Shown here: positions 7,524 to 34,869 of the stretch, one piece after another
Layout of the letters: the number at the start of each line of letters is the position of its first letter
How positions within the stretch are numbered: the stretch's first letter is position 1
NCBI GenBank assembly: GCA_903899985.1
Contig: CAIULL010000137.1
Coordinates: 1-46,632 of the forward strand
Source: an uncultured Schlesneria sp.
GTDB lineage: Bacteria; Planctomycetota; Planctomycetia; Planctomycetales; Planctomycetaceae
Length of the DNA: 46,632 nucleotides
Reading direction: 5' to 3'
Program-made: the position numbers and the translations under genes
The notes under the pieces: model-generated
What the model saw: the letters and a program-made list of their open reading frames with translations, nothing else
Databases searched by the model: none
Told to the model about the DNA's origin: nothing

Positions 7524-8813
7524 TCACTTGATCATTGATGGTATCCATCGAGGATGGTCGGCACCGAGCTCGTTCATGCCCCGAGTGATCATGCGAGGAT
7601 TTGTTCCATCGCTCTCCATCACCCAGATCGCGGGGGCTTCGCCCGTCGCCGCACGACAAAATACGATCTGCTTGCCGTCTGGTGACTCGCTCGCTCGGAA
7701 GTCCCAGACGTTTTCTTTTTCGGGTGTCAGCACAGTCACCGACCCCGTTGCGGGATCGAGCCGACAGATCTGGGTTCCGCCACGTGCCAGTTCCGGCTTG
7801 AAATCTCGATTGAAGTGATCGAGATCGGGCTGATTGACTCGATATTCCCAGGGAACCCTGGCATCTCTGGTCCTGCGCGGAAACAGGATTTTTCCATCCA
7901 GCGTCCACGAGGGGACATTGGAACCACCTCCGCGAGTCTTTTGATCACCATAAGTCGCCGCAAACCACATCGACTGGCCTGACGTCAGGACCCGATGTTC
8001 CGATCCGTCAGGACGTCCGATACAGACATCGGCCCAATCGTGGCCGGGGTCCTGCTGGTGCAGGCAGTCAACATACAAAACCCATTGGCCGTCGGGTGAC
8101 CACTGGGTTCCAAAATAAAGGTGACCCGGTTGTGCCGCGAGACGAATCCGGTTCGAGCCGTCGACATCACTGGTCCAGACCTGATACCCCTGAGGGCTGG
8201 CCAGATGAAAGGCAACCCGTTTTCCATCTGGGCTGAGGCTGAGTCCATACGGCAGCCCCTCGCCTGCTTTTGTAAATTCCCGAGCATCGCTTCCATCCAG
8301 GCGAACGCTGTAGATCTGTCCGACCTTGTTTTTCACGACCTGAATCAGCAGGCGATCCTCAGAAATCAGAAGTGCGGGCGTCGTGAAGGGAGCAATGCGG
8401 TCTTTTGTGCAGATTTCTTCGAGAGATTCCGATTCCAGATCGTATTGCCACAAATGCGTCGGCGTCTGGGTATAGAATTCTTCGAACGGTCGACCAGGCC
8501 CGTCGCGGCGTGGCTCCATGCTCAAGACCACCACACGACGCCCGTCGGGAAAACAAGCGCCCGGCTGCCACGTCGCCTGTCCCGGTTTGTCGAAGCTCAA
8601 GTATTTCGGTTCACTGCCATCGATCGTCGCTAATGCGGTTTTCCCTTGCGATGTGAAAAAAAATCGTTTTGAGCCTGGCGAGGCAGAAGCCTCATCCGCC
8701 CCGAAAGCGAACAGGTCAGTAAAGAGCCAGGCAATGACGAGCGCTAAAGCCGTCAGCTCATGTCGGCACAGAACATTCAATCGATGGAAACAGAGTTGAA
8801 ACAGGTCTGACAT
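7524..8813 (-). CDS. Exported TolB-like (PD40/WD40-like) beta-propeller protein
   Basis: This 429-residue protein has an N-terminal hydrophobic segment (about residues 21-38) that acts as signal peptide or anchor. The body carries repeated PD40 blades: LSLSPDGKRVAFHLASP, TQWSPDGQWVLYVD, PSWTLDGKILFPRR and SESPDGKQIVFCRA, with interspersed DGS(D/E/N) loops. This is the TolB-type propeller, usually a scaffold for protein or ligand binding in the periplasm. No protease domain is attached, and it is not the Pal-associated TolB (no tol genes nearby). The start is ATG 8811-8813, at the upstream end of the long open frame. Confidence 0.8.
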   Translation of the reverse strand: MSDLFQLCFHRLNVLCRHELTALALVIAWLFTDLFAFGADEASASPGSKRFFFTSQGKTALATIDGSEPKYLSFDKPGQATWQPGACFPDGRRVVVLSMEPRRDGPGRPFEEFYTQTPTHLWQYDLESESLEEICTKDRIAPFTTPALLISEDRLLIQVVKNKVGQIYSVRLDGSDAREFTKAGEGLPYGLSLSPDGKRVAFHLASPQGYQVWTSDVDGSNRIRLAAQPGHLYFGTQWSPDGQWVLYVDCLHQQDPGHDWADVCIGRPDGSEHRVLTSGQSMWFAATYGDQKTRGGGSNVPSWTLDGKILFPRRTRDARVPWEYRVNQPDLDHFNRDFKPELARGGTQICRLDPATGSVTVLTPEKENVWDFRASESPDGKQIVFCRAATGEAPAIWVMESDGTNPRMITRGMNELGADHPRWIPSMIK

Positions 8814-9114
8814 GGTTAGCTAATAAATGAGTTTGTTGTACTGGAAGGTGAGTGTCGTCCACGGCGAAATAACAGTTCTCTTCATTCGTTAAAAATCAGT
8901 CGAAATTCAAGGGTCTAAAAAGCGATGGCCCTTAACCAACAAGGTGATTCAAAACAATATCTGGGGTTGTTTGCGTGTTTTATTTCAGTGCAGGTTGTTC
9001 GATGGTCTGGATTGCGAACCACCCGCGATTAACGCACAATAGCACAGCCAGGCCGTCTTGTTTATCAAATATCCAGGAACGTTTTTTGTTCATCGCATTA
9101 CAAAAAGGGAATTG
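8814..9114. other. Intergenic region between divergent genes
   Basis: These 301 bases separate the divergently transcribed propeller gene and the TIR-STAND gene, so promoters for both should lie here. It is AT-richer than its surroundings. I do not see a clear -35/-10 pair or an operator repeat. AAGGGA at 9105-9110 is the likely ribosome binding site for ATG 9115. Confidence 0.4.
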
Positions 9115-12100
9115 ATGCCGGGCGCACTTTTTCATGTGTTTCTTTCGCATAACAGCGATGATAAGCCCGCGGTTGAAGAATTGGCTCGGCGTTTGAAGGC
9201 CGACGGTTTGGAAGGATGGCTTGATAAATGGCACCTGATTCCCGGACAGGCCTGGCAGCAGGCGATTGAACAGGCCCTGGCAGATTCTGGATCGGTCGCC
9301 GTCTTTGTTGGCCCCAGCGGTTTCGGTCCCTGGCAGAATGAAGAAATGCGAGTCGCCCTTGCTAAGCGGGTCAAAGATGGTGACGGGAAATTCCGTGTCA
9401 TCCCCGTTTTGCTTCCGGGTGGGACACGCGAAGAGCGAGGTCGATTGCCGGCGTTTTTGCTGGAATTGACGTGGGTCGAGTTTCGGGACTCGCTTGATGA
9501 CGCGGATGCCTATCACCGTTTGAAAAGCGGCATTCTGGGTCTTTCTCCCGGGCTACCGACTGGGCAATCCGTTTTTGAAGGCCAATGCCCCTACAGGGGA
9601 TTAAGCGCGTTCCAATCTGAGCACGCGAAGTTCTACTTCGGACGTGAAGCGCGAATCGAATGGATATTAAATGAACTTCGCCCCTCAAAATATCGGGATA
9701 ATACGGGAGCCCCGTTAGTCAACCGCTTTGTGGCCATTGTTGGTGATTCTGGCAGCGGCAAATCGTCATTAGCGCGCGCAGGTCTCGTACATGCACTGCA
9801 GCAGGGAAAACTCGAAGGGAGTGAGGATTGGCCAATCATTATCTGCCGACCTGGCCAGAATCCATTGGAAAGTCTGGCCGTTGAACTTTGTGGTCATCCA
9901 AAAATCAAATCTTCCATCGGGGATGTTGGTGATCTGATCGCGCACATGGCCACTGACGAGACGCGCCTTCATCTGGCGATCCGAGTTGCGCTGGCAGGAG
10001 CCGCAGAATCACAGCGAGTTGTTCTGCTGATCGATCAGTTTGAAGAAGTTTTCTCTTTACACGCGGACAATTCAACGAATCCTCGATCGAGTGGTACTTT
10101 CTCGGATGGTGAAAAGTCGAAGGATGCCGAGGCGGCCAGAAACGCGTTTATCAACAATCTGGTCCACGCAGCCGGGATCGCCGGCGGGAAAGCGATTGTC
10201 ATTCTGACGATGCGAGCCGACTTCTACAGCAAGTGCGCTTCCTATCCCCGTCTGGCGGCGATCATCACAGAGCATCAGGAACTGGTCGGCCCGCTCACTC
10301 GCACCGAATTGCGTGAGGTGATCGAGCGCCCTGCTCAACTGGTTGGCCTCGAACTGCAACCCGGATTGACCGAAATGCTGTTGACCGAGATGGAATCACA
10401 GCCCGGAGCGCTGCCACTTTTGCAACATGCCTTGCGGGAACTTTGGCAACGGCGGGACGGTCATCAGTTAACCATCGCCGCTTACAATGCGATTGGCGGG
10501 TTGGAGGGGGCCCTCGAACAGCAGGCGAATGCGGCATTTGATGCGATGAGTCCGGCCCAGCAAGAAACGTGTCGTCGAATTTTTCTGCGGCTGACTCAGC
10601 CTGGAGAAGGGACAGAAGACACCAAGCGGCGAGTCCATCTCAATCAACTTGGTGACTCGAACGAAATCACACCTATCATCAATCGATTAACGGAAGTCAG
10701 GCTGATAACGGCCGAGAAGGGTTCGTTCGTTGAAGTCGCGCACGAAGCGCTGATTCGATCCTGGACCAAGCTGAGAGGCTGGATTGAATCAGAACGGGAA
10801 TCCATGCGGACGCAGCATCGCTTGACGGAGGCGGCGGCGGAGTGGAACACTGCCGGTCGCGATTCCGGCTATCTGTATCAGGGGGCCCGACTGGCCGAGG
10901 CTGAAGAATGGTCGAAAATTCCCGAATCCGATTTGACGCGGGAAGAACGAGAATTTCTCGCAGCGAGTATCGATCAGCGAGATCGCGAAAAACGGGAAGA
11001 AATCAATCGTCAAAAACGTGAGATCGAAACCCTGACCAAACTGGCGGGAATCGAGAAACAGCGCGCCGGTGAGCAGGCCGCTTCCGCCCGTCGATCGAAA
11101 TGGCAATCGATCTTTGCGATGACGTTGGCCGTTGCCGCGCTGATCGCCTCTGCATTCGCCTGGAAAGCCCAGAAACAGGCAAAACTCGCCCGGCAACAAG
11201 TCGAACAAACGTATGCAAATGACCTTCTCGCGAGAATCAGTGGACATCCCGGCGATCTGGAACAAAACGAAATCGACGCCTTCTGGCAGATCGCCAGCTT
11301 AAAAGAGAGTCAGCAGGCATTACGAGAAAAGTTGTCGCGACAGTCGTTTGAAACGACCAATGTCGAGCGTTTAATCAATCGGGCACCATTCGTCGCACGA
11401 GCTGTCGTTGGTCTGGATAACAAGCGTCGAACGGCTTTGAAACTCAAAATTCTTGAGTTACTCAATAATTCCGATCCCTCGAGCGAAGATCCCGGCGACA
11501 AGAAGAACCGGAAACTTGCCGCCGCTCGCGTTGGTGTCGCATTGAATCTCAAAGACGATGTGTTTACTGAAGCTGCTGTCGAGTCTCTTTCCTTGAACAT
11601 GGCGGATTGTCACGACCCCAAATTACTCAAATCATTGAAAGACGACCTCAGCACGGTCATGGGATCGATTTCACAAGATCGTCTTCACCTGGCAGTTGAA
11701 CAGGTTATCAAAGCCATCGAGACCAGCAGCGAAGCCGAAAACGTCACTGCACTTTGCAATACAATTCTCGAAATCACGAACTTACCACTCTCGCAAGTAG
11801 AAACAAGGCGGATCGGATCACGACTCCTGCCCCTGATGAATCAAACGACAGGTGACCCTCGTGTCTTTGTCGGGCTCGTCAAGTGCATGACTTCGTTGCC
11901 CGAGCATCTCGCCGAGAACTTCAATGTGAAAAACGGCGTCGGCTTCATCGTTGACACGATGGCTGAATATCCAAGTCGCGAAATACGAGACACCCTGTTC
12001 GGTGTCTATGAAAGCGGCGTTAAACGTGCGAATCCTGTTCAACGTGAAATCGCTGCAAATCAAATCCTGTCCCGCATGAAACCTGAGTGCGACTCGGATG

Positions 12101-13899
12101 AAATGCACTTCCTTGCGAAATGCCTGGCTGTCGTCGCGCAGCAAATCCCCTCCAAAGGGGTTGATCTTATCCTGCAGGGAATGAACGCGACGACAAATGC
12201 ACAGTCGCTAAAGCGTTTGTTTGAGGGCCTCAAGCAACAAGGTAACGTGACGGAAGAGGATTGTCGAAAGGCTCTCTCTCGTCTGCTGGAGGTTATTCAA
12301 CAGGAAGAGTTGCCGCCAAGTTTAATGGTACTGGCAAAGTGTCTGAAAGAGATTCCTGACAAGATCCCTGAAAAGGAAATGGGACTCGTCAAAGAAAAAC
12401 TGTTGACTCGAATGAAGACATATGACACGCCCCCCGGGATGCTGAATCTGTCCTTCGGACTGGCATCGCTACCTGACACGCTTTCGAGGCAAGACAGTGA
12501 ACGAGCATTTGCCATCCTGCTCGGTTGGCTTGACGAAGTTTCGGAAACTGAACTGGTGAAAATGCTTGGTGATGCGATGAAATCGCTCGGCACCAATCTT
12601 TCGGACGACGGGGCGGAAGCGGGAGCGTCAATGATTCTGAGTCATGTGGAGAACACCGTCGATGCTCGGAAACTTATTGCGATGGCAAATGGCTTACAGG
12701 GAATGAAAGAAGTCATCAACAGCAAGGCGATCGACAAGTCCTTCATGATTCTCATGACAAAACTGCGCAGCGCCAAGTTGCCGATCGACGTGGCGAATGT
12801 GGTGGAAAGTTTGTCCAGGATACCAGGGCAACTTTCAGAAATGATCGCCGATGAAATGCTGGAACGAATGCTCTCGTTTCTTCTCGAAAAAGAAACAGAA
12901 CAGAGTTTGCAAGTTGCGGTAAGCAGGTTCGAGCTTGCCTGCCGGGTCGCTTCGCCGCACAAGCGGCAAGAGGCGATCGGCAGGATTCTCAAAAAGTTTC
13001 ACGCGGTCAATGAAACATGGATGAAGCGAGAGCTTTCGCATGGACTTGCTCTGGTTTGCGATGCCGTTAAGGCGGACCAGGAATTCGAGGCGACCGAAAT
13101 ATCACCCATCGCCGATTGTCTCGTCAGTGCCATGCAACGAGCGATCAGTCCCGATGAAATAAAACAACTGGCAAAGGGATTGCAAAAAGTCGGTCCATTG
13201 CTGTCGGAAAAAAGGGGTCATGCGACGGCTCAGCAAATCATTGATTTGATTCCCTATTGGATTCAGGCGACGAATGACCCCAACGCGGTGGGTCAGATCG
13301 CTCAGCTTTGGAGTGCTATGGCCAAAAGAATGAAACCGGAGCAAGTTGATGCCGCGTGCAAATACATTCTGGAAGTCACCGACCGAGATGGCAACAAGGA
13401 AACTCGTCCGGCCTTGTGTCATGCCGCCGTCAACCTGGCAAATGCAATCCAGGACGATTACGCGTCCGAAGGATTGACCAGCCTGCTTGAAGGCCTGCAA
13501 AGGGTTCACGAGTACGAGACTCGGTCGATCCTGTTGCAGGGAATCGAGCGGCAGGCAACGAGGATTCCCGCGAATAATCTCCGTCGCGCAAAAAAACGAA
13601 TGCTGGCAGCGACAAAGACTCACATCGACGAACAGGTTTCTATCGGATTGATCAACGCACTCAAAAAACTTCCCGAGGCGCTGGATACTCCTGAGATGAT
13701 TGAAATGTTGAAGTCTCCGTTTTGCACTCCTGCCGCAACCGAAGAGCTGTTGCGGATGATCGAAGACAAGAACAGGCTTCAACCAGTTGATAACGTCTGG
13801 ATGCTCATGGACAGCGTCAAAGGTACGGAAATCAAACCACAGGAATGGCAAAAACCGCCCGAGCACCCCAATGACCTCGGAGTCGACAGCGCGTCTTAA
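9115..13899 (+). CDS. TIR domain - STAND NTPase - transmembrane - helical repeat protein
   Basis: The protein has 1594 residues. TIR domain at about 5-145: FHVFLSHNSDDKP at the start, WLDKWHLIPGQAW, and W73-Q-N-E-E77, matching the WxxxE that carries the catalytic glutamate of NAD-cleaving TIRs. STAND (nSTAND1-like) NTPase at about 158-560: CPYRGLSAFQSEHAKFYFGR lead-in, Walker A GDSGSGKSS (210-218), Walker B VVLLIDQFEE (302-311) and a winged-helix-like VEVAHEALIRSWTKLRGW. A charged coiled stretch precedes one membrane helix at about 666-686. Residues 700-1594 are alpha-helical repeats in place of the usual WD40 repeats. The inferred role is a sensor-triggered NAD-depleting or signalling switch, plausibly anti-phage. 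ATG 9115 is chosen over an upstream in-frame start at 9058 because AAGGGA precedes it and the TIR begins directly. It appears monocistronic. Confidence 0.9.
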   Translation: MPGALFHVFLSHNSDDKPAVEELARRLKADGLEGWLDKWHLIPGQAWQQAIEQALADSGSVAVFVGPSGFGPWQNEEMRVALAKRVKDGDGKFRVIPVLLPGGTREERGRLPAFLLELTWVEFRDSLDDADAYHRLKSGILGLSPGLPTGQSVFEGQCPYRGLSAFQSEHAKFYFGREARIEWILNELRPSKYRDNTGAPLVNRFVAIVGDSGSGKSSLARAGLVHALQQGKLEGSEDWPIIICRPGQNPLESLAVELCGHPKIKSSIGDVGDLIAHMATDETRLHLAIRVALAGAAESQRVVLLIDQFEEVFSLHADNSTNPRSSGTFSDGEKSKDAEAARNAFINNLVHAAGIAGGKAIVILTMRADFYSKCASYPRLAAIITEHQELVGPLTRTELREVIERPAQLVGLELQPGLTEMLLTEMESQPGALPLLQHALRELWQRRDGHQLTIAAYNAIGGLEGALEQQANAAFDAMSPAQQETCRRIFLRLTQPGEGTEDTKRRVHLNQLGDSNEITPIINRLTEVRLITAEKGSFVEVAHEALIRSWTKLRGWIESERESMRTQHRLTEAAAEWNTAGRDSGYLYQGARLAEAEEWSKIPESDLTREEREFLAASIDQRDREKREEINRQKREIETLTKLAGIEKQRAGEQAASARRSKWQSIFAMTLAVAALIASAFAWKAQKQAKLARQQVEQTYANDLLARISGHPGDLEQNEIDAFWQIASLKESQQALREKLSRQSFETTNVERLINRAPFVARAVVGLDNKRRTALKLKILELLNNSDPSSEDPGDKKNRKLAAARVGVALNLKDDVFTEAAVESLSLNMADCHDPKLLKSLKDDLSTVMGSISQDRLHLAVEQVIKAIETSSEAENVTALCNTILEITNLPLSQVETRRIGSRLLPLMNQTTGDPRVFVGLVKCMTSLPEHLAENFNVKNGVGFIVDTMAEYPSREIRDTLFGVYESGVKRANPVQREIAANQILSRMKPECDSDEMHFLAKCLAVVAQQIPSKGVDLILQGMNATTNAQSLKRLFEGLKQQGNVTEEDCRKALSRLLEVIQQEELPPSLMVLAKCLKEIPDKIPEKEMGLVKEKLLTRMKTYDTPPGMLNLSFGLASLPDTLSRQDSERAFAILLGWLDEVSETELVKMLGDAMKSLGTNLSDDGAEAGASMILSHVENTVDARKLIAMANGLQGMKEVINSKAIDKSFMILMTKLRSAKLPIDVANVVESLSRIPGQLSEMIADEMLERMLSFLLEKETEQSLQVAVSRFELACRVASPHKRQEAIGRILKKFHAVNETWMKRELSHGLALVCDAVKADQEFEATEISPIADCLVSAMQRAISPDEIKQLAKGLQKVGPLLSEKRGHATAQQIIDLIPYWIQATNDPNAVGQIAQLWSAMAKRMKPEQVDAACKYILEVTDRDGNKETRPALCHAAVNLANAIQDDYASEGLTSLLEGLQRVHEYETRSILLQGIERQATRIPANNLRRAKKRMLAATKTHIDEQVSIGLINALKKLPEALDTPEMIEMLKSPFCTPAATEELLRMIEDKNRLQPVDNVWMLMDSVKGTEIKPQEWQKPPEHPNDLGVDSAS

Positions 13900-14892
13900 A
13901 AATGCTCCGGCCGAAATTTCTGATCAAGCTTTCCGCACGCGGCTGACCCCTGGTGCGATGACGAAATCAGCGGCATGGAACCTGGCACAACATCACGACG
14001 GATTGAACAGTGAGGGTCGTCAACAGTTGGTGAAGCCTTATGTTGGCGGCCTTGCGACCCAACGGGTCAGCAGTTCAATTCGTCAGGCTCGCAGGTTTCC
14101 CGGAGGCCCTGATACCATCCGTTGATTAAGGTATAGGGCCTGCAGGGCCGACGGTTCACTCAATATCTCATGCACGATGATCGAATAGCGCCGGTGACAG
14201 CAGGCAGCCGAAATGCCGGTCTCTCAGATCTCCTTATCGTTTTTGAAAACTGACTCAAACGTTCCAGTGCTAGAATTTGTTCCCAAGTCCCCTTTTCGCG
14301 TCGCCGGGAAGAAAGCGGAATCGCCAATTTCTGCGTGATTTATTTCAGCTTTGAAGTGTCATTCGAGATCGGCTGTTATTCAGTGATCGTCTCGGCGGAG
14401 AGGCTGTCTGTTTTTGTGGTGTGGGCTTTAATCCGTACAAGAAGTTGTGTCGCACGGGCTGACGCCCATGCGAAAGGCAGTGGCTCGCCATTTTCAACTT
14501 ACAAAAACTGGCATCGTCGGAGCGAGACGGCGACTTTGATCCCAGGCGAAGCCGCAATCGGAGTCGTCTCCGTCGCAATGGCTTCGCATTTTCACTGAAG
14601 CAATCGAAGTGCACTGGCTGCCCGAATATCGTCATCCAATGGCAACCGAAAATTGTTGATTTTCGACAACACACTTTCCTGAGAAACGCCAAAACGGGCA
14701 TCATGATCATCTCATTTGCGAAAGAGCTTACATTGTGTCGGGGCCAGCCGCTAAACCAGTCCAAACTCATCAAAAATCGCTTGACTCCCGTCAAACTCAA
14801 AGTAGCATGCTCGACAAACGGGGTGATATCTGGGCGAATTTTGGCGGGCGCCTCCCTGCGGAATTCTTTTTTAACGAAACACGAGTTCCAGC
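13900..14892. other. Long intergenic region, no gene recognised
   Basis: Open frames here are short and resemble no family. At 14105-14140 a near-perfect stem (ggccctgatacc / ggtatagggcc, one base missing) may end transcription of the TIR-STAND gene. Near 14520-14580 an imperfect palindrome (gcgagacggcgact / agtcgtctccgtcgc) is visible. The region is unusually long for this window and could hold a small RNA or a decayed gene, but I see no direct support for either. Confidence 0.4.
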
Positions 14893-16293
14893 ATGGATCA
14901 ATTTCTCGCTTCGTGGATGGATAAAACGATTCAGCGTGCTCGGCAGCAGAACGAGTCTGGGGTCGTCCGGCCGAAAGTTCCCGGGGACAAACTGAAGCTC
15001 CTTTTTGCCGGGTACAATGGGACGCGCAACACAGGATCTGACGTCCGTGTGGAAGAAATGCTGCGACAGGTCCGGCACATCTTTGGTGCCGATCGTCTGG
15101 ATCTGACCGTCTTCAGCTTCATCAAGTCGTATTCGAAGGGCTATTTCGGCGACGCGCGGCAGGTGACGCCAAGTCCCCTGTTTCCCAGATTCCTCAGCCA
15201 GGAAGTTCCGCGTCATGACGGCGTCATTGCTTGCGAGGGTTCGACATTCAAAAGCGCTTTCACTGATTTGCTGACAATCATGATGGTCGGAGCCATGGGA
15301 CTGGCGACAGCTCATCGCCGACTCTCGGTCGCTTACGGCGCAGAAGCGGGAAAGATGAATCCCTGGCCAAAACGACTGGCAACCGACTATTGCAAAGAGT
15401 CACTCGTCATCACCCGCAACGAAGAATCACGACGAGTGCTGGCTGAACTGGATATCCCCAGTGAGTTTGGGACTGATACCGCATGGACGTTCAGCCCGCT
15501 GGGGCGGGAATATGCGGAAAAGGAATTGAGGAAAGTGGGCTGGAACGGCGAGCGATTATTGATCGTCTGTCCGATCAATCCCTTCTGGTGGCCGGTGACA
15601 GCCTCGTTGTCCAAAACGGCCTGGCGCCTGCTCGGCTTTTACCGAAAAAGTCATTACGGTCGGATTTTCTTCTTCCAGGACAGTGAAGAAGTGAACCGCA
15701 AATACGAGAAATATCTGTCAGCCGTTGCGGGTGCGGTTCGTCGTTTTCGTGAAAAGACCGGCGTGTTTGTCGCCGTCGCAGCAAGCGAAGAACTGGACAA
15801 TGCGGCGGTCAAAAAACTCTCTGAAAAACTTGGGGGCGTTCCGACATTCAGTTCGACTCATCACAACATGTACCAGTTGGTCAGCATCTTCCGCGCGGCC
15901 GACCTGATGCTTTCTTCCCGGTACCATGCGATCGTGACTTCGATGGCGACCGGTGTCCCGTCGGCCGGGATCACATTTGACGAGCGGATCGCCAACCTGA
16001 TGAGAGAACGGGGACACGAGCACCTTTTAATGCGCGTCGATGATCCCGATCTGGAAGAGCGAGCCGAAGCCGCGCTGTTCGAACTGTATAATAATCCCGA
16101 ACCGATTTCGGAGGGTGCAACTCAAACGGTCGCCCGAAATCTGCAAGTCATGTCGACGATGGGACAAAAACTGCGCGACTATGTCGTCCAGCGTCACCCT
16201 CAGTTTGAACCAAAACGACAATTTCATTCATGGGAAGATTACCTCCCCCCCATGGGCCCTGAACTCCACTCGCTGCTGGAACAACACGTCTAA
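14893..16293 (+). CDS. Polysaccharide pyruvyl transferase family protein
   Basis: This 466-residue protein belongs to the PS_pyruv_trans (CsaB/WcaK-like) family, which adds a pyruvyl ketal from phosphoenolpyruvate to cell-surface polysaccharide. The family signature opens the domain at about 35-55: LLFAGYNGTRNTGSDVRVEEM. The C-terminal half has the GT-B-like elements: TFSSTHHNMYQLVSIFRAAD (start of the nucleotide/PEP-binding half), SSRYHAIVTSMATGVPS near 340 and the GITFDERI that follows. No other glycan genes are adjacent, so the acceptor is unknown. ATG 14893 has no clear Shine-Dalgarno sequence. No in-frame extension upstream is convincing. Confidence 0.85.
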   Translation: MDQFLASWMDKTIQRARQQNESGVVRPKVPGDKLKLLFAGYNGTRNTGSDVRVEEMLRQVRHIFGADRLDLTVFSFIKSYSKGYFGDARQVTPSPLFPRFLSQEVPRHDGVIACEGSTFKSAFTDLLTIMMVGAMGLATAHRRLSVAYGAEAGKMNPWPKRLATDYCKESLVITRNEESRRVLAELDIPSEFGTDTAWTFSPLGREYAEKELRKVGWNGERLLIVCPINPFWWPVTASLSKTAWRLLGFYRKSHYGRIFFFQDSEEVNRKYEKYLSAVAGAVRRFREKTGVFVAVAASEELDNAAVKKLSEKLGGVPTFSSTHHNMYQLVSIFRAADLMLSSRYHAIVTSMATGVPSAGITFDERIANLMRERGHEHLLMRVDDPDLEERAEAALFELYNNPEPISEGATQTVARNLQVMSTMGQKLRDYVVQRHPQFEPKRQFHSWEDYLPPMGPELHSLLEQHV

Positions 16294-17075: not shown

Positions 17076-18620
17076 TCACTTTGCGGCGATGCAGGCCAGC
17101 GCGTTGTCTTTGATGCCTTGATCGGCGATCATCTGGGCGACCGTGAGGGCGCTGGCGGAATCCCCGTGTTCGGCCAGCTTCATGGCGGCTTCCGCAGCGA
17201 TCTGGTCACGGTGGAGACCGGGCTCGAGGGCGGCGAGGGCCTTGACGGTGACCGCTCCATTACCATTTTCTGCGGACTCCAGGATGATCGGGCCGAGAGC
17301 AGCTTCACGAGATTTGGCGTCCCCGATGGACATGGCCGCCTGCAATCTTGGGTCCGTCTCTTCCGGTTCCGTCCCCAGGAATTCGTTGTCCACGCCCCAT
17401 GTCAGACAGCCGGTGGCCACCCAGAGAAATAAGCCGACATTGCCCGGGATCAAACCGAAGATCCAGGCGAAGAAGAGGACGCCGCTGATACTTCCCATGA
17501 TCCACGTGAGCACGTGCTTGAGCTGAGCAAGTGCCTCGCGATTACCGCCGAGCGCGGCGTTGGCCAGGCCAAAGAAACTGCCGAAATTTTTTGCTGCCGC
17601 GGGGGGGGTATTGGCGGCTTCTGATTGCGTGGTGGGCTCCGACTTCTGCCCGGGTGTCGTTTCAATGGATTCGATTTCGCTACGCACCTCACTGACATGC
17701 TGGTAGCGGCGGTCGGGCTCGCTCTCGAGAGCTTTAAGGACGACATGGTCGAGACGGCTGTCGAGTTTGACTTTCTGCGAGGGGACTGCAAACCGGCCAA
17801 TGGGAAGCTCGCCCGTCAGTAGCTCGTAGAAGACAACCCCGAGGGAGTAGATATCGGCCCGGTGGTCAACCTCGAGCGGTTTATCAAGCTGTTCGGGGGC
17901 CATGTAGCGCCAGGTCCCCATCACCTGGTGAGTGCCGGTGAGGCGTCCGGCGTGCGTCCCTGTTTGAAGCATCTTGGCGAGGCCGAAATCGGCGATCTTG
18001 ACTCGTCCCTTTCGATCGATGAGGACATTTTCCGGTTTGATATCACGATGAACGATCGCCTGTTCATGGGCGTACTGGAGGGCATCGCAGACCTGAGGGA
18101 TAATCTGAAGAGCCTCGCGCGGCTCAAGTTTGTGGTCGTGTATCAGGGCACGAAGGTCACGACCATCGACGTATTCCATAATCAGGTAATAGAGGTCGCC
18201 GGTCTGGCCGAAGTCGTGAATCGTCACGATGCCGGGATGACTGAGTCTGGCGAGTGCGCGGGCCTCGCGGGCGAAGCGTTCGGCGAATGCCGGGTCCGCT
18301 CCCGCTTCGGGAGGCAGAATCTTGATCGCGACCAGGCGATCGAGATGCGGCTGGCGGGCCTTGTAAACGGCCCCCATTCCCCCCTGCCCGAGCAGCTCAA
18401 GGATTTCGAGTTGAGGGAACCTTTGAGCCAGCTCGGCTGGCGACGGGGGCACGAAACGGCCGGTGCTCGCCTGCGAACTGGCCGGGACGCCTGAGACTGT
18501 GACGGAGGGACGGGCCGATCCAGCCAGTCCCTGCCGAAGCAAGCAGGCTGGGCAGAGACTGGCGGGGGCGTCAGGCGGCCGCCGTACGCCGCAGCTTGGG
18601 CAATTGTCGTTTTGAGACAT
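17076..18620 (-). CDS. Serine/threonine protein kinase with N-terminal zinc ribbon
   Basis: The protein has about 514 residues from ATG 18620 (an in-frame ATG also occurs at 18632). The N-terminus has a CPSCG…CPAC zinc ribbon (about 7-27). The kinase domain spans about 72-325 with every key motif: LGQGGMGAVYKA (P-loop), VAIKIL (ATP lysine, about K100), HRDIKPEN (catalytic loop), ADFGLA and YMAPEQ. After a Pro/Ala-rich linker come two membrane segments at about 360-405 (IMGSISGVLFFAWIFGL and GNVGLFLWVATGCLTWG), then an alanine-rich helical tail. It is a Hanks-type kinase of the planctomycete kind. It lies 100 bp downstream of an ECF sigma factor on the same strand, a pairing common in planctomycetes, so it probably acts in that sigma factor's signalling. 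Confidence 0.92.
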   Translation of the reverse strand: MSQNDNCPSCGVRRPPDAPASLCPACLLRQGLAGSARPSVTVSGVPASSQASTGRFVPPSPAELAQRFPQLEILELLGQGGMGAVYKARQPHLDRLVAIKILPPEAGADPAFAERFAREARALARLSHPGIVTIHDFGQTGDLYYLIMEYVDGRDLRALIHDHKLEPREALQIIPQVCDALQYAHEQAIVHRDIKPENVLIDRKGRVKIADFGLAKMLQTGTHAGRLTGTHQVMGTWRYMAPEQLDKPLEVDHRADIYSLGVVFYELLTGELPIGRFAVPSQKVKLDSRLDHVVLKALESEPDRRYQHVSEVRSEIESIETTPGQKSEPTTQSEAANTPPAAAKNFGSFFGLANAALGGNREALAQLKHVLTWIMGSISGVLFFAWIFGLIPGNVGLFLWVATGCLTWGVDNEFLGTEPEETDPRLQAAMSIGDAKSREAALGPIILESAENGNGAVTVKALAALEPGLHRDQIAAEAAMKLAEHGDSASALTVAQMIADQGIKDNALACIAAK

Positions 18621-18720
18621 CGGTCTGTCCATTTTCGTTGTTTCGGCTCATATTCGCCGGGCGGATTTCCCCGTTCTACCTTGTTATGACGGAAATCGAT
18701 TGGAAGGTTACACGTTTTTT

Positions 18721-29399: not shown

Positions 29400-30608
29400 T
29401 CAGTCAAACTTGTTGACAGTTTCCTGGAACTTTCGTTTCCCTTCTTCGACGACTCGGCGAATTTCTTTCGCGCTCTCTTCGCTCTCTTTTCGCAATTCGG
29501 CAATCATCTGGATTGACTCCACCTGATAATCGGAAATCGCGGTGACAAGCTTTTCAACCGACTGAGGGCTGATGGTCGAACCATAGCCGGCCCTGAGTGC
29601 CGCTCGTTCGAGATCGCGTCCCAGTTCGGCGACGTCTTCCAGTCCCTTGTTGACACCTTCCTTCATCGATTCCGTCGCTTTGGTTGCTTCGTTCAACCCT
29701 TGCTGGGACGTATAGACGGTTCCCAGAATCGTGAAGACGTGTTCGTTCGTGGTGAAGAAGGTTACGGATCGGCGATAGACCTGATCTTTGACGTCGTGTG
29801 TCTGCTTCAGTTTCGTCACGAGCGTCTCACCCACGTCGTATCCGACACTCAGATTTTCGGCGACGTCCTTCAGTAACTGATAAGTTCGATCTTCCTGTTC
29901 CCAGGCATGTCGAGCTTCGTCTCGTTTCAATTCCAATTTGGACCTGGCCCCCTGATCCTTAGGATCAGCTGCCGTCACTGCTTCTTGTGCTGCGGTCAGG
30001 TCCTGTTGAGCCTTCATCAGCGTCGGGGCGAACTCATCCAGCACTTCCCTGGCCAGAACTTCCGCCTCTTTCAGAGCGAACCGGAAATCGATGTAAGCGT
30101 CCATGATCGCCAGTTCTCGATCGAGCTGGTTTTTCGTGTCGGCAGCCACATTCTTATAGACTTCGGCAATCTTATCGAATCGAGCACCCGGGGTTCCACG
30201 ACGCAACCGCATCCAAAGATTCTGAGCTTTCTCGGGAAGACTGAACTTACCGTCGTCGAGCTGCCGGATCAGCATTTTTGAGTCTTCGCGGATCGAATCA
30301 AACATTTGCGTGATTTCGAGGTAGCGAGTCCCGATATTGATGCTTTCGACATTGTCGCGTACCAGTTGGTTGAAGGTACTCATTTCCTGGATCGTCTTGG
30401 CGATTGCCAGAATTTTTGGCTCGTCGATGTGCTTGACTTCATCGAGCATTTTGACGAGTTCGGTTGGTTCCTTTGCGGTTGCAACACCAAACTTTTTCAA
30501 TGCACCAACGGCCTTATCCAGATATTGCTGAATCCCCGTTGGCATCACAGGAATCGCGTCCTGGGTCGGCGCTTCGACTAAATCTGCAGAAACCGCTTTC
30601 TTGGCCAT
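29400..30608 (-). CDS. TelA-like (toxic anion resistance family) coiled-coil protein
   Basis: This 402-residue protein, almost entirely alpha-helical and rich in charged residues, has no membrane segment or signal peptide. Helical blocks include LDKAVGALKKFGV, ILAIAKTIQEMSTFNQL and EILAREVLDEFAP-like stretches. The C-terminal third, TNEHVFTILGTVYTSQQGLN then ATKATESMKEG…LEDVAELGRDLE, resembles the end of TelA/KlaA proteins, which are named for tellurite resistance but are more widely linked to envelope stress. The match is by pattern only, so the name is tentative. ATG 30606-30608 gives MAKKAVSADLVEAP; an AAAGGAC lies about 11 bases upstream, and the longer frame to 30698 is not convincing. 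No ter genes are nearby. Confidence 0.6.
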   Translation of the reverse strand: MAKKAVSADLVEAPTQDAIPVMPTGIQQYLDKAVGALKKFGVATAKEPTELVKMLDEVKHIDEPKILAIAKTIQEMSTFNQLVRDNVESINIGTRYLEITQMFDSIREDSKMLIRQLDDGKFSLPEKAQNLWMRLRRGTPGARFDKIAEVYKNVAADTKNQLDRELAIMDAYIDFRFALKEAEVLAREVLDEFAPTLMKAQQDLTAAQEAVTAADPKDQGARSKLELKRDEARHAWEQEDRTYQLLKDVAENLSVGYDVGETLVTKLKQTHDVKDQVYRRSVTFFTTNEHVFTILGTVYTSQQGLNEATKATESMKEGVNKGLEDVAELGRDLERAALRAGYGSTISPQSVEKLVTAISDYQVESIQMIAELRKESEESAKEIRRVVEEGKRKFQETVNKFD

Positions 30609-30819
30609 GATTCGATTTGTCCTTTCGATTTTTAAAAGTTGGCTGCCGTAAGAAACAGGATGGCCGTTGAAATCGAGCGAGCAGTCATCCCCGGACAATC
30701 AATCTATCAATCCTCGAAAATGATCGCGACCGTACACCGTGCAGAGTTCAAGCAATAAGCCAATCCCGATCCGTTTCTCTTCGCGATCAGTCCCAGGCTG
30801 TAAGAAGAGAATCAACCGC

Positions 30820-33786: not shown

Positions 33787-34869
33787 ATGGAGCGTCTCCC
33801 CGAATCTCCGAAGTCCAGGTATTCAAAGCCGACAATTGGAGGGATCTTTTCCAGTTCCGACCACGATCGGTTTTGTACCGGCAGGCCCGAGATGGGGTTT
33901 GACGCATTCTTCCCCGAAGTCGTTCGTAACAAGACTCGCAATCTGTACGAAACCGGCATTGATGCGCTGGCTGCGATCCTGGAAGAGCATGCAGGTCCTC
34001 AACGACCAATCACGCTTTGGACGGCCCAGAATTTCTGCCGCGAATCGCTGAATCGATTGTCGATCAAGCTCGGAAATCGAATTCAGTTCCAACCATATCG
34101 TTCGCGAGATGACCTTCTGAAAATTGGGCCGCAAGACGTATTGCTTTATCTGCATTACAATCACTTCGATCCCGCGACGAAGGAAATGATCAACTCGATT
34201 CGCCAGCGAACGGGCGCCGCGATTATTGAAGACTTCGTTCAAGCACCGCTGGACATTGCGAATTTCACCGGTGAATATGCATTGAACAGCCTTCGAAAAC
34301 TCAGCAGCGTTGATGTTGCGGTCGCGTATCAAAACAATCGTCGAGAACCGTCGATCGAGCCAACGCGATATCGAATCCTGCGGAAAGAGGCTGAAAAGGC
34401 CAAGACCGCTTTTCTCCAGAACCCTTCGGAAGAACTCGAACAACTCTTCTTGAAACTGGGCCGCGAATCTGACGAAGCGTTAGCTGTTCCGGAAATTGCT
34501 TCTGCTCACGAGAGTGAAGTTGCACGAGCAAAGGCCTTCGACTTTGGGAATGCTCGGACGATTCGTCGCGAGAACTACGCACATCTGGTCCAGCTCATGT
34601 CAGCGACACTTCCTGAAATCGAAATCCTGCCGGGTGAATATATGTACCTGATGGTCGAGACACCCCAGCGTGATCGCTACCGTGCGGACCTCTTTTCTCA
34701 ACGAGTTTTCCCGGTGATTCATTGGGCTGACTCGGAATGCCCGCACGTCAAATCGCTGCTCAGCTTCCACGTTGACCAACGGTATTCAACAGCCGACATG
34801 GAACGAGTCGTGGCCGTAATGAAAGAGACTCGAGATCAACTTGCGACAACTTTCAAGACGAATGCCTGA
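33787..34869 (+). CDS. DegT/DnrJ/EryC1-like PLP-dependent aminotransferase-fold protein
   Basis: This 360-residue protein looks like a fold-type I PLP enzyme of the sugar aminotransferase kind. AAIIEDFVQAPLD (about 140-152) corresponds to the DegT strand with the PLP-binding Asp, and YALNSLRKLSSVDVAVAY to the strand carrying the PLP lysine (SLRK). The C-terminal small domain ends with LLSFHVDQRYSTADMERVVAVM, typical of the group. The N-terminus, with a SSSDHDRFCTGRPEMGF segment, and the missing usual glycine-rich substrate loop make it atypical. Such enzymes aminate nucleotide-linked sugars, but no sugar pathway is adjacent. ATG 33787 is the first start of the frame. Confidence 0.6.
   Translation: MERLPESPKSRYSKPTIGGIFSSSDHDRFCTGRPEMGFDAFFPEVVRNKTRNLYETGIDALAAILEEHAGPQRPITLWTAQNFCRESLNRLSIKLGNRIQFQPYRSRDDLLKIGPQDVLLYLHYNHFDPATKEMINSIRQRTGAAIIEDFVQAPLDIANFTGEYALNSLRKLSSVDVAVAYQNNRREPSIEPTRYRILRKEAEKAKTAFLQNPSEELEQLFLKLGRESDEALAVPEIASAHESEVARAKAFDFGNARTIRRENYAHLVQLMSATLPEIEILPGEYMYLMVETPQRDRYRADLFSQRVFPVIHWADSECPHVKSLLSFHVDQRYSTADMERVVAVMKETRDQLATTFKTNA

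Follow-up and report, generated by a model that had tools for sequence, protein, structure and literature searches.

The stretch of DNA analyzed here (hereafter, the window; 46,632 nucleotides of contig CAIULL010000137.1 from an uncultured Schlesneria sp.) contains a large gene at positions 9115–13899 of the forward strand. The gene starts with ATG and encodes a product of 1594 amino acids, although its reading frame is open already from a TTG at 9058. The protein comprises a TIR domain, an nSTAND1 NTPase, a hydrophobic helix, and a HEAT-type solenoid; the assignment is supported by the open reading frame, the homologs P0002–P0016, and dN/dS values of 0.07–0.20.

Genomic setting of the gene

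The gene lies between a PD40 repeat protein gene on the reverse strand (7524–8813; 301 bp upstream) and a gene of the polysaccharide pyruvyl transferase family on the forward strand (PS_pyruv_trans, 14893–16293; 993 bp downstream). Both neighbors were assigned by Pfam and synteny and form the left and right edges of a variable site; for the PD40 gene, the synteny is with G004/L028. Between these two genes, the site is filled in the window and in genome G004, and it is empty in genome G001, where about 140 bp correspond to approximately 5.9 kb in the filled state and the flanks show 83–89% DNA identity. Because the same two neighbors flank the gene in two genomes and a short empty stretch in a third, the gene is accessory and has a fixed location. 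Genome G001 has a sensor of another type elsewhere. A degenerate multi-copy repeat at 13945–14778, between the gene and its right neighbor, is absent from the locus of the G004 ortholog and has 32 matches in its own genome, its own place included.

The earlier note described the gene as standing alone. This holds for the window, where no defense system was recognized beside the gene and the gaps are those given above, but not for the closest ortholog (G004:C51). Beyond the transferase gene, that locus contains an HmaC-like gene, a 297-aa ORF, an HmaB-like gene, a 397-aa ORF, and an HmaA-like gene, with E-values of 1e-105, 3e-101, and 3e-187 for the HmaC-, HmaB-, and HmaA-like matches, respectively. 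These genes, with the two further ORFs among them, are located at L079:14538–18047 and L042:38–7755. The possibility that homologs never occur near defense genes therefore does not hold. Among the seven sampled loci, a clear defense system was found at one, that of G004, and the five others and the window had no clear one; the scan covered 67 ORFs from these loci and its results come from the best 25 of 78 families, so that weaker defense genes may be missed. It also gave two SduA matches with E-values of 1.5e-7 or weaker, which were not placed at a locus. The matches of the window gene at 17076–18632 to PD-T4-6, mad6, and similar PADLOC models were regarded as generic protein-kinase matches and not as defense context, and neither were partial helicase matches in L045. 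Two sizeable ORFs of the window, at 29400–30698 (reverse strand) and 33787–34869 (forward strand), had no Pfam match at E 1e-3.

Domain architecture and the HEAT-type sensor

All features of the protein lie on the forward strand. The TIR_2 domain occupies residues 8–136 (9136–9522; PF13676, E 1e-24) and is followed by the nSTAND1 NTPase at residues 159–584 (9589–10866), for which the PF20703 profile was matched over positions 1–378 of 379 with an E-value of 7e-124. A motif search located an intact Walker A (GDSGSGKSS, residues 210–218, 9742–9768) and an intact Walker B (VLLIDQFEE, residues 303–311, 10021–10047). A long charged helix at residues 609–656 (10939–11082; helix 60–107 of the AlphaFold2 model) precedes the hydrophobic helix at residues 665–683 (11107–11163), a predicted single transmembrane segment. 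The remainder is a long helical-repeat part at residues 717–1567 (11263–13815), recognized from the AlphaFold2 model, autocorrelation, and structural matches. Thus, the reading frame and domain build proposed in the earlier note, including the intact STAND NTPase, the single hydrophobic helix (placed there at 666–686), and the helical repeats, were confirmed.

In the alignment to the TIR chains 3h16, 7uxr, and 7uwg, residues W73-x-x-x-E77 fall on their W...E. The glutamate E77 (9343–9345) corresponds to that of 7uxr and 3h16, which we take to be the catalytic one, so the WxxxE glutamate claimed previously is correctly aligned. The motif is present in 15 of the 16 members of the sensor family described below, P0016 being the one without it. 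The solved relatives 3h16, 7uxr and 8g83 (AbTIR), and Cat1 (9mud) share the TIR fold, with an aligned W...E in 3h16 and 7uxr; however, they are remote in sequence (E 5e-6 to 2e-3) and the match is confined to the TIR domain. One of the closest, 8g83, carries the name NAD(+) hydrolase. The PADLOC models of TIR systems (bSEFIR, ThsB, TIR-SAVED, and TIR-Argonaute) likewise have a TIR N-terminus in common with the window protein, and none gave a near-full match, since 52–117 TIR residues were covered with E-values of 4e-9 or weaker. Judging from the motif and these relatives, the TIR domain is a putative NADase.

AlphaFold2 was run on residues 550–1594 with a 14-sequence alignment. The model is nearly all helical (mean pLDDT 82.7, pTM 0.58) and has 45 helices of at least 4 residues each between residue 717 and about residue 1567. 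The hydrophobicity profile of the family has a 39-residue period, with an autocorrelation of 0.317 vs. 0.134 at the 99th percentile of 500 block shuffles and further peaks at lags 78 and 117. Structure comparison with the PDB matched HEAT proteins, among them SF3b1 and karyopherins. The sensor is accordingly modeled as a HEAT-type alpha-solenoid of tandem helix pairs with a regular period; the fold matches indicate a common HEAT arrangement only, and function was not deduced from them. No Pfam family above the cut-off covered the sensor, and weak hits to HEAT_PSME4_mid, TPR_20, and NLRC4_HD2 below it were set aside. A C-terminal CLec/FGE domain, as in the STAND proteins of PMC10907252, was also looked for, and Pfam gave no FGE hit at E-values of up to 1.

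Among the best 120 of 6948 hits to the N-terminus, 16 proteins, including that of the window, share the sensor, a number that describes this sample and not the size of the family. The same applies to the at least 5 homologs obtained by a word-based search, in which the 7998 candidates with the largest number of shared words were scored. Within the genus, the sensor was found in 6 of 15 genomes, the window genome included, and 25 further genomes of the family or class yielded one weak match. A scan of genome contigs with a two-row sensor alignment detected one locus, in a Schlesneria MAG, whose matches are the same as G004:C51 and were counted once. The identity of P0004–P0014 to the window protein is 65–75% over the N-terminal 690 residues and 23–41% over the sensor. 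Compared with the closest ortholog, dN/dS was 0.07 for the TIR domain, 0.10 for nSTAND1, 0.20 for the sensor, and 0.05 for the linker, values that indicate purifying selection on the reading frame. Around the hydrophobic helix, a stretch of 30 residues is free of amino acid changes. The sensor value is about twice the rate of the TIR and NTPase domains, as expected of a recognition surface.

STAND NTPases of the nSTAND1 type are named in passages on bacterial conflict systems (PMC8195603; also PMC10907252). As described there, they resemble the window protein in the PF20703 NTPase, an N-terminal effector that may be a TIR domain, and a swappable C-terminal sensor. Their sensors, however, are of the FGS/CLec type and often DGR-diversified, unlike the HEAT solenoid of the window protein, for which there is no Pfam model. 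Among the best 120 of 6948 hits, TIR-nSTAND1 proteins with WD40, TPR, or FGE sensors are 49–57% identical over the first 690 residues and mostly have the same helix, whereas their sensors belong to a different fold or family.

The hydrophobic helix in the TIR-nSTAND1 class

The helix at residues 665–683 has a Kyte-Doolittle mean of 1.98, and the next best windows of the protein, inside the NTPase, reach at most 1.37. It is rich in alanine, and its summed biological-scale energy is close to zero; the value for the helix of P0005 is above +2. In the AlphaFold2 model, residues 668–707 are helical, with the start of the helix at low confidence (pLDDT below 50 at 651–678), so the prediction neither shows nor excludes burial of this segment. 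Helices in other proteins were scored with a simple rule, a mean Kyte-Doolittle value of at least 1.6 over 19 residues within about 170 residues after nSTAND1, according to which the window protein qualifies.

A similarly placed helix was found in the best 6 of the 13 nSTAND1 places of the window genome. The sensors of these six proteins are of the HEAT (window, C112), FGE-sulfatase (C139, C245), and WD40 (C224, C8) types; for C224 and C8, the TIR domain is encoded in a separate adjacent gene. The nSTAND1-helix-WD40 protein of C224 (L026:2122–6990, with TIR in the preceding gene) has a second hydrophobic helix at its extreme C-terminus, together with a basic tail. The helix was also present in 109 of the best 120 of 6948 N-terminal homologs, and all 16 listed members of the sensor family retain it while its letters drift. 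Thus, it is the rule in the TIR-nSTAND1 class and not a peculiarity of the window protein. Five TIR-nSTAND1 proteins (P0126, P0128, P0130, P0145, and P0086) have at least five terminal hydrophobic segments and no known domain there.

The 11 proteins without the helix among these best 120 included the three with PAS/GGDEF/EAL, PAS/GAF/HK, and HK/REC modules. The link between helix and C-terminal module suggested by this first sample (3 of 3) was tested with a second one, searched afterwards with one of the three, the HK-bearing P0080, as the query. It consisted of 65 new proteins and, given this query, was enriched in HK-type proteins. Sixteen of the 65 were labeled HK or GAF from a precomputed Pfam list (10 of the 16 labels were checked by our own Pfam scan), and 15 of these 16 had no helix. 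In two of the 15, a hydrophobic stretch occurs further downstream, which we read as a probable GAF-type strand; the stretch at residues 733–751 of P0182, the sole HK/GAF protein that passed the helix rule, is likewise a probable GAF strand. Among the WD40 types of the second sample, the helix was found in 16 of 19.

In the pooled set (180 of 185 relatives, five being too short), the helix occurred in 142 of 161 proteins without HK, PAS, GAF, or GGDEF modules vs. 1 of 19 with them. The corresponding Fisher p of 1e-13 is too small because the proteins are related. On the tree, there are at least 14 changes of the module label, and among seven independent supported pairs, 4.5 were in the direction of the link and none was opposite (median p 0.06). 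Counting against the link, 19 of the 161 relatives without cytosolic signaling modules, WD40 and TPR types included, have no helix. In the consulted parts of the literature, including passages of PMC7159879, PMC8195603, PMC10907252, and PMC11032199, no statement of such a class-wide rule was found, which does not prove its absence.

Topology, output, and proposed role

The N-terminus of these proteins should be inside the cell because the TIR and NTPase domains need NAD+ and ATP. Consistent with this orientation, the 15 residues preceding the helix contained more lysine and arginine than those following it in 103 of 109 proteins of the first sample and fewer in none; in the second sample, the corresponding numbers were 29 and 6 of 35. 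Within the 16-member sensor family, the count was higher before the helix in 11, tied in 5, and lower in none. The window protein itself shows a tie (4:4). Two relatives carry domains of recognizable location after the helix, namely PBP_dimer and transpeptidase domains in P0064 and a CHASE2 domain in P0097. These domains are of periplasmic types, active outside the inner membrane. In P0064, a metagenomic homolog, the region concerned is residues 649–1228, and its transpeptidase stretch was found to contain no SxxK motif; to judge from the sequence, this stretch looks like a pseudo-transpeptidase serving as a sensor. The caspase domain of P0095, known from its label and placed after the helix by deduction, would be expected to be cytosolic and counts against the link between helix and module. 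P0113 lacks the helix but carries a homologous solenoid that includes both end regions, which implies that the same type of sensor can work inside the cell.

The cysteine content gave a different indication for the window protein. The part after the helix contains 13 cysteines in 911 residues (1.43%), and medians in the same genome were 0.65% for 36 predicted secreted and 1.25% for 90 other proteins, as split by a home-made signal-peptide rule among the longest non-overlapping ORFs of at least 250 aa from 400 kb of genome. Values of at least 1.4% were found in 4 of the 36 predicted secreted and 38 of the 90 other proteins, and among those over 500 aa in 0 of 15 and 2 of 17, respectively. In this respect, the sensor of the window protein is more cytosol-like than secreted-like. 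For the C-terminal parts of the rest of the family, the values lie between 0.65 and 1.51%, and 4 of the 13 cysteines are kept in at least 11 of the 16 family rows. As a topology test for the class, cysteine content was set aside, since it differs between sensor folds; the values over the 109 helix-bearing homologs (1.21% before vs. 0.65% after the helix) would favor a sensor outside.

Comparable layouts have been predicted elsewhere. For one STAND target, section 14 of PMC10907252 predicts that the sensor is periplasmic, and the WD40, TPR, and FGE-type sensors of Planctomycetota Ser/Thr kinases are, in the relevant part of PMC11032199, predicted to be mostly periplasmic. According to the same part, these membrane-spanning kinases resemble the proteins discussed here in a cytosolic output, mostly one helix, and a predicted periplasmic repeat sensor, and they differ in having a protein-kinase output instead of STAND and TIR.

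The earlier note had proposed an envelope-facing alarm, with the repeat sensor outside the cytoplasm and the TIR domain inside. For the class, this arrangement is well supported: the helix resembles an anchor, its presence tracks the type of the C-terminal module, and P0064 and P0097 are fusions with periplasmic-type domains. For the window protein, the data are mixed, given the 4:4 flanks, the borderline hydrophobicity, the cysteine content, and P0113, and we rate an outside sensor as probable, at a little over one half. Taken together, the earlier interpretation is partly supported: the TIR glutamate and the anchor-like helix stood, the helix is no peculiarity of this protein, and the topology of the protein itself received evidence on both sides.

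The best explanation, to which we give slightly better than even chances, is that the window gene encodes a single-pass inner-membrane receptor of an immune type, which would turn a signal from outside into NAD+ cleavage inside the cell. The TIR and nSTAND1 domains would lie in the cytoplasm, the helix at residues 665–683 would cross the membrane, and the HEAT solenoid would extend into the periplasm. Once the solenoid had bound a ligand, the nSTAND1 switch would be released, and ATP-bound subunits would then assemble and bring the TIR domains into a cluster. The clustered domains may cleave NAD+ or turn it into a signal, so that the cell would be halted or killed.

The same features allow other explanations, one of which keeps the solenoid in the cytoplasm, in a protein that is tethered to the membrane or simply close to it. 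As in other STAND proteins of bacteria, the solenoid would then sense a phage or stress signal from within the cell, and residues 665–683 would form a short anchor or else a helix that is buried or mediates oligomerization. The high cysteine content of the sensor, the tied flank charges and borderline hydrophobicity, the helix-less P0113 with its homologous sensor, and the caspase of P0095 (at its deduced position downstream of the helix) are all in line with such a protein, as are the PDB matches to HEAT proteins, which are presumably intracellular. It is nevertheless harder to reconcile with the retention of the helix in all 16 listed family members despite the drift of its letters, with the excess of lysine and arginine before it in 11 of the 16 (5 being ties), and with the class-wide link between helix and module type; we consider it rather unlikely. 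The output could also differ from the one proposed, the TIR domain acting as a scaffold or making a signaling nucleotide for an effector encoded elsewhere, with NAD+ not destroyed. Some bacterial TIR domains do produce signals, and the 14 TIR_2 matches in the window genome would make cross-talk possible; the intact WxxxE motif and the presence of 8g83, named as an NAD(+) hydrolase, among the closest solved relatives argue the other way and leave this reading improbable, at about one chance in four.

A membrane receptor need not serve phage defense, either, and could take part in bacterial signaling or programmed cell death in response to envelope stress, cell contact, or surface polysaccharide. 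This would agree with the polysaccharide-type gene at the conserved site, with the existence of relatives that carry histidine kinases or a PBP-like module, and with the neighborhoods, in which no defense system was recognized in the window and none was clear at five further of the seven sampled loci. Yet the gene is accessory, the site between its neighbors being occupied in some genomes and empty in G001; its sensor occurs patchily (in 6 of 15 genomes of the genus) and evolves fast, and HmaABC-like genes lie near the closest ortholog. We rate such a receptor with a role other than phage defense as rather unlikely; the defense context is thin, and the defensive role is a putative one.

Extending the receptor model to the whole group, we put at even chances that TIR-STAND proteins include a large bacterial class of transmembrane receptors, each in effect combining a Toll-like receptor with an NLR within a single chain, in which the outer sensor is exchangeable and the helix is gained or lost with the side on which the module works. 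The exchangeable outer sensors would include HEAT, WD40, TPR, FGE, PBP-like, and CHASE2 types, and the window protein would be a member with an uncatalogued HEAT ectodomain. To our knowledge, the characterized bacterial STAND defense proteins are intracellular sensors of phage proteins. If the model is true, a class that watches the envelope and has an NAD-cleaving output inside would allow bacteria to detect an attack before or at entry, with an arrangement for which animal Toll-like receptors are otherwise the known example. Because the helix and the C-terminal module go together, simple topology reporters could be used to test the receptor idea, and the PBP-like and CHASE2 fusions suggest what some members of the class sense.
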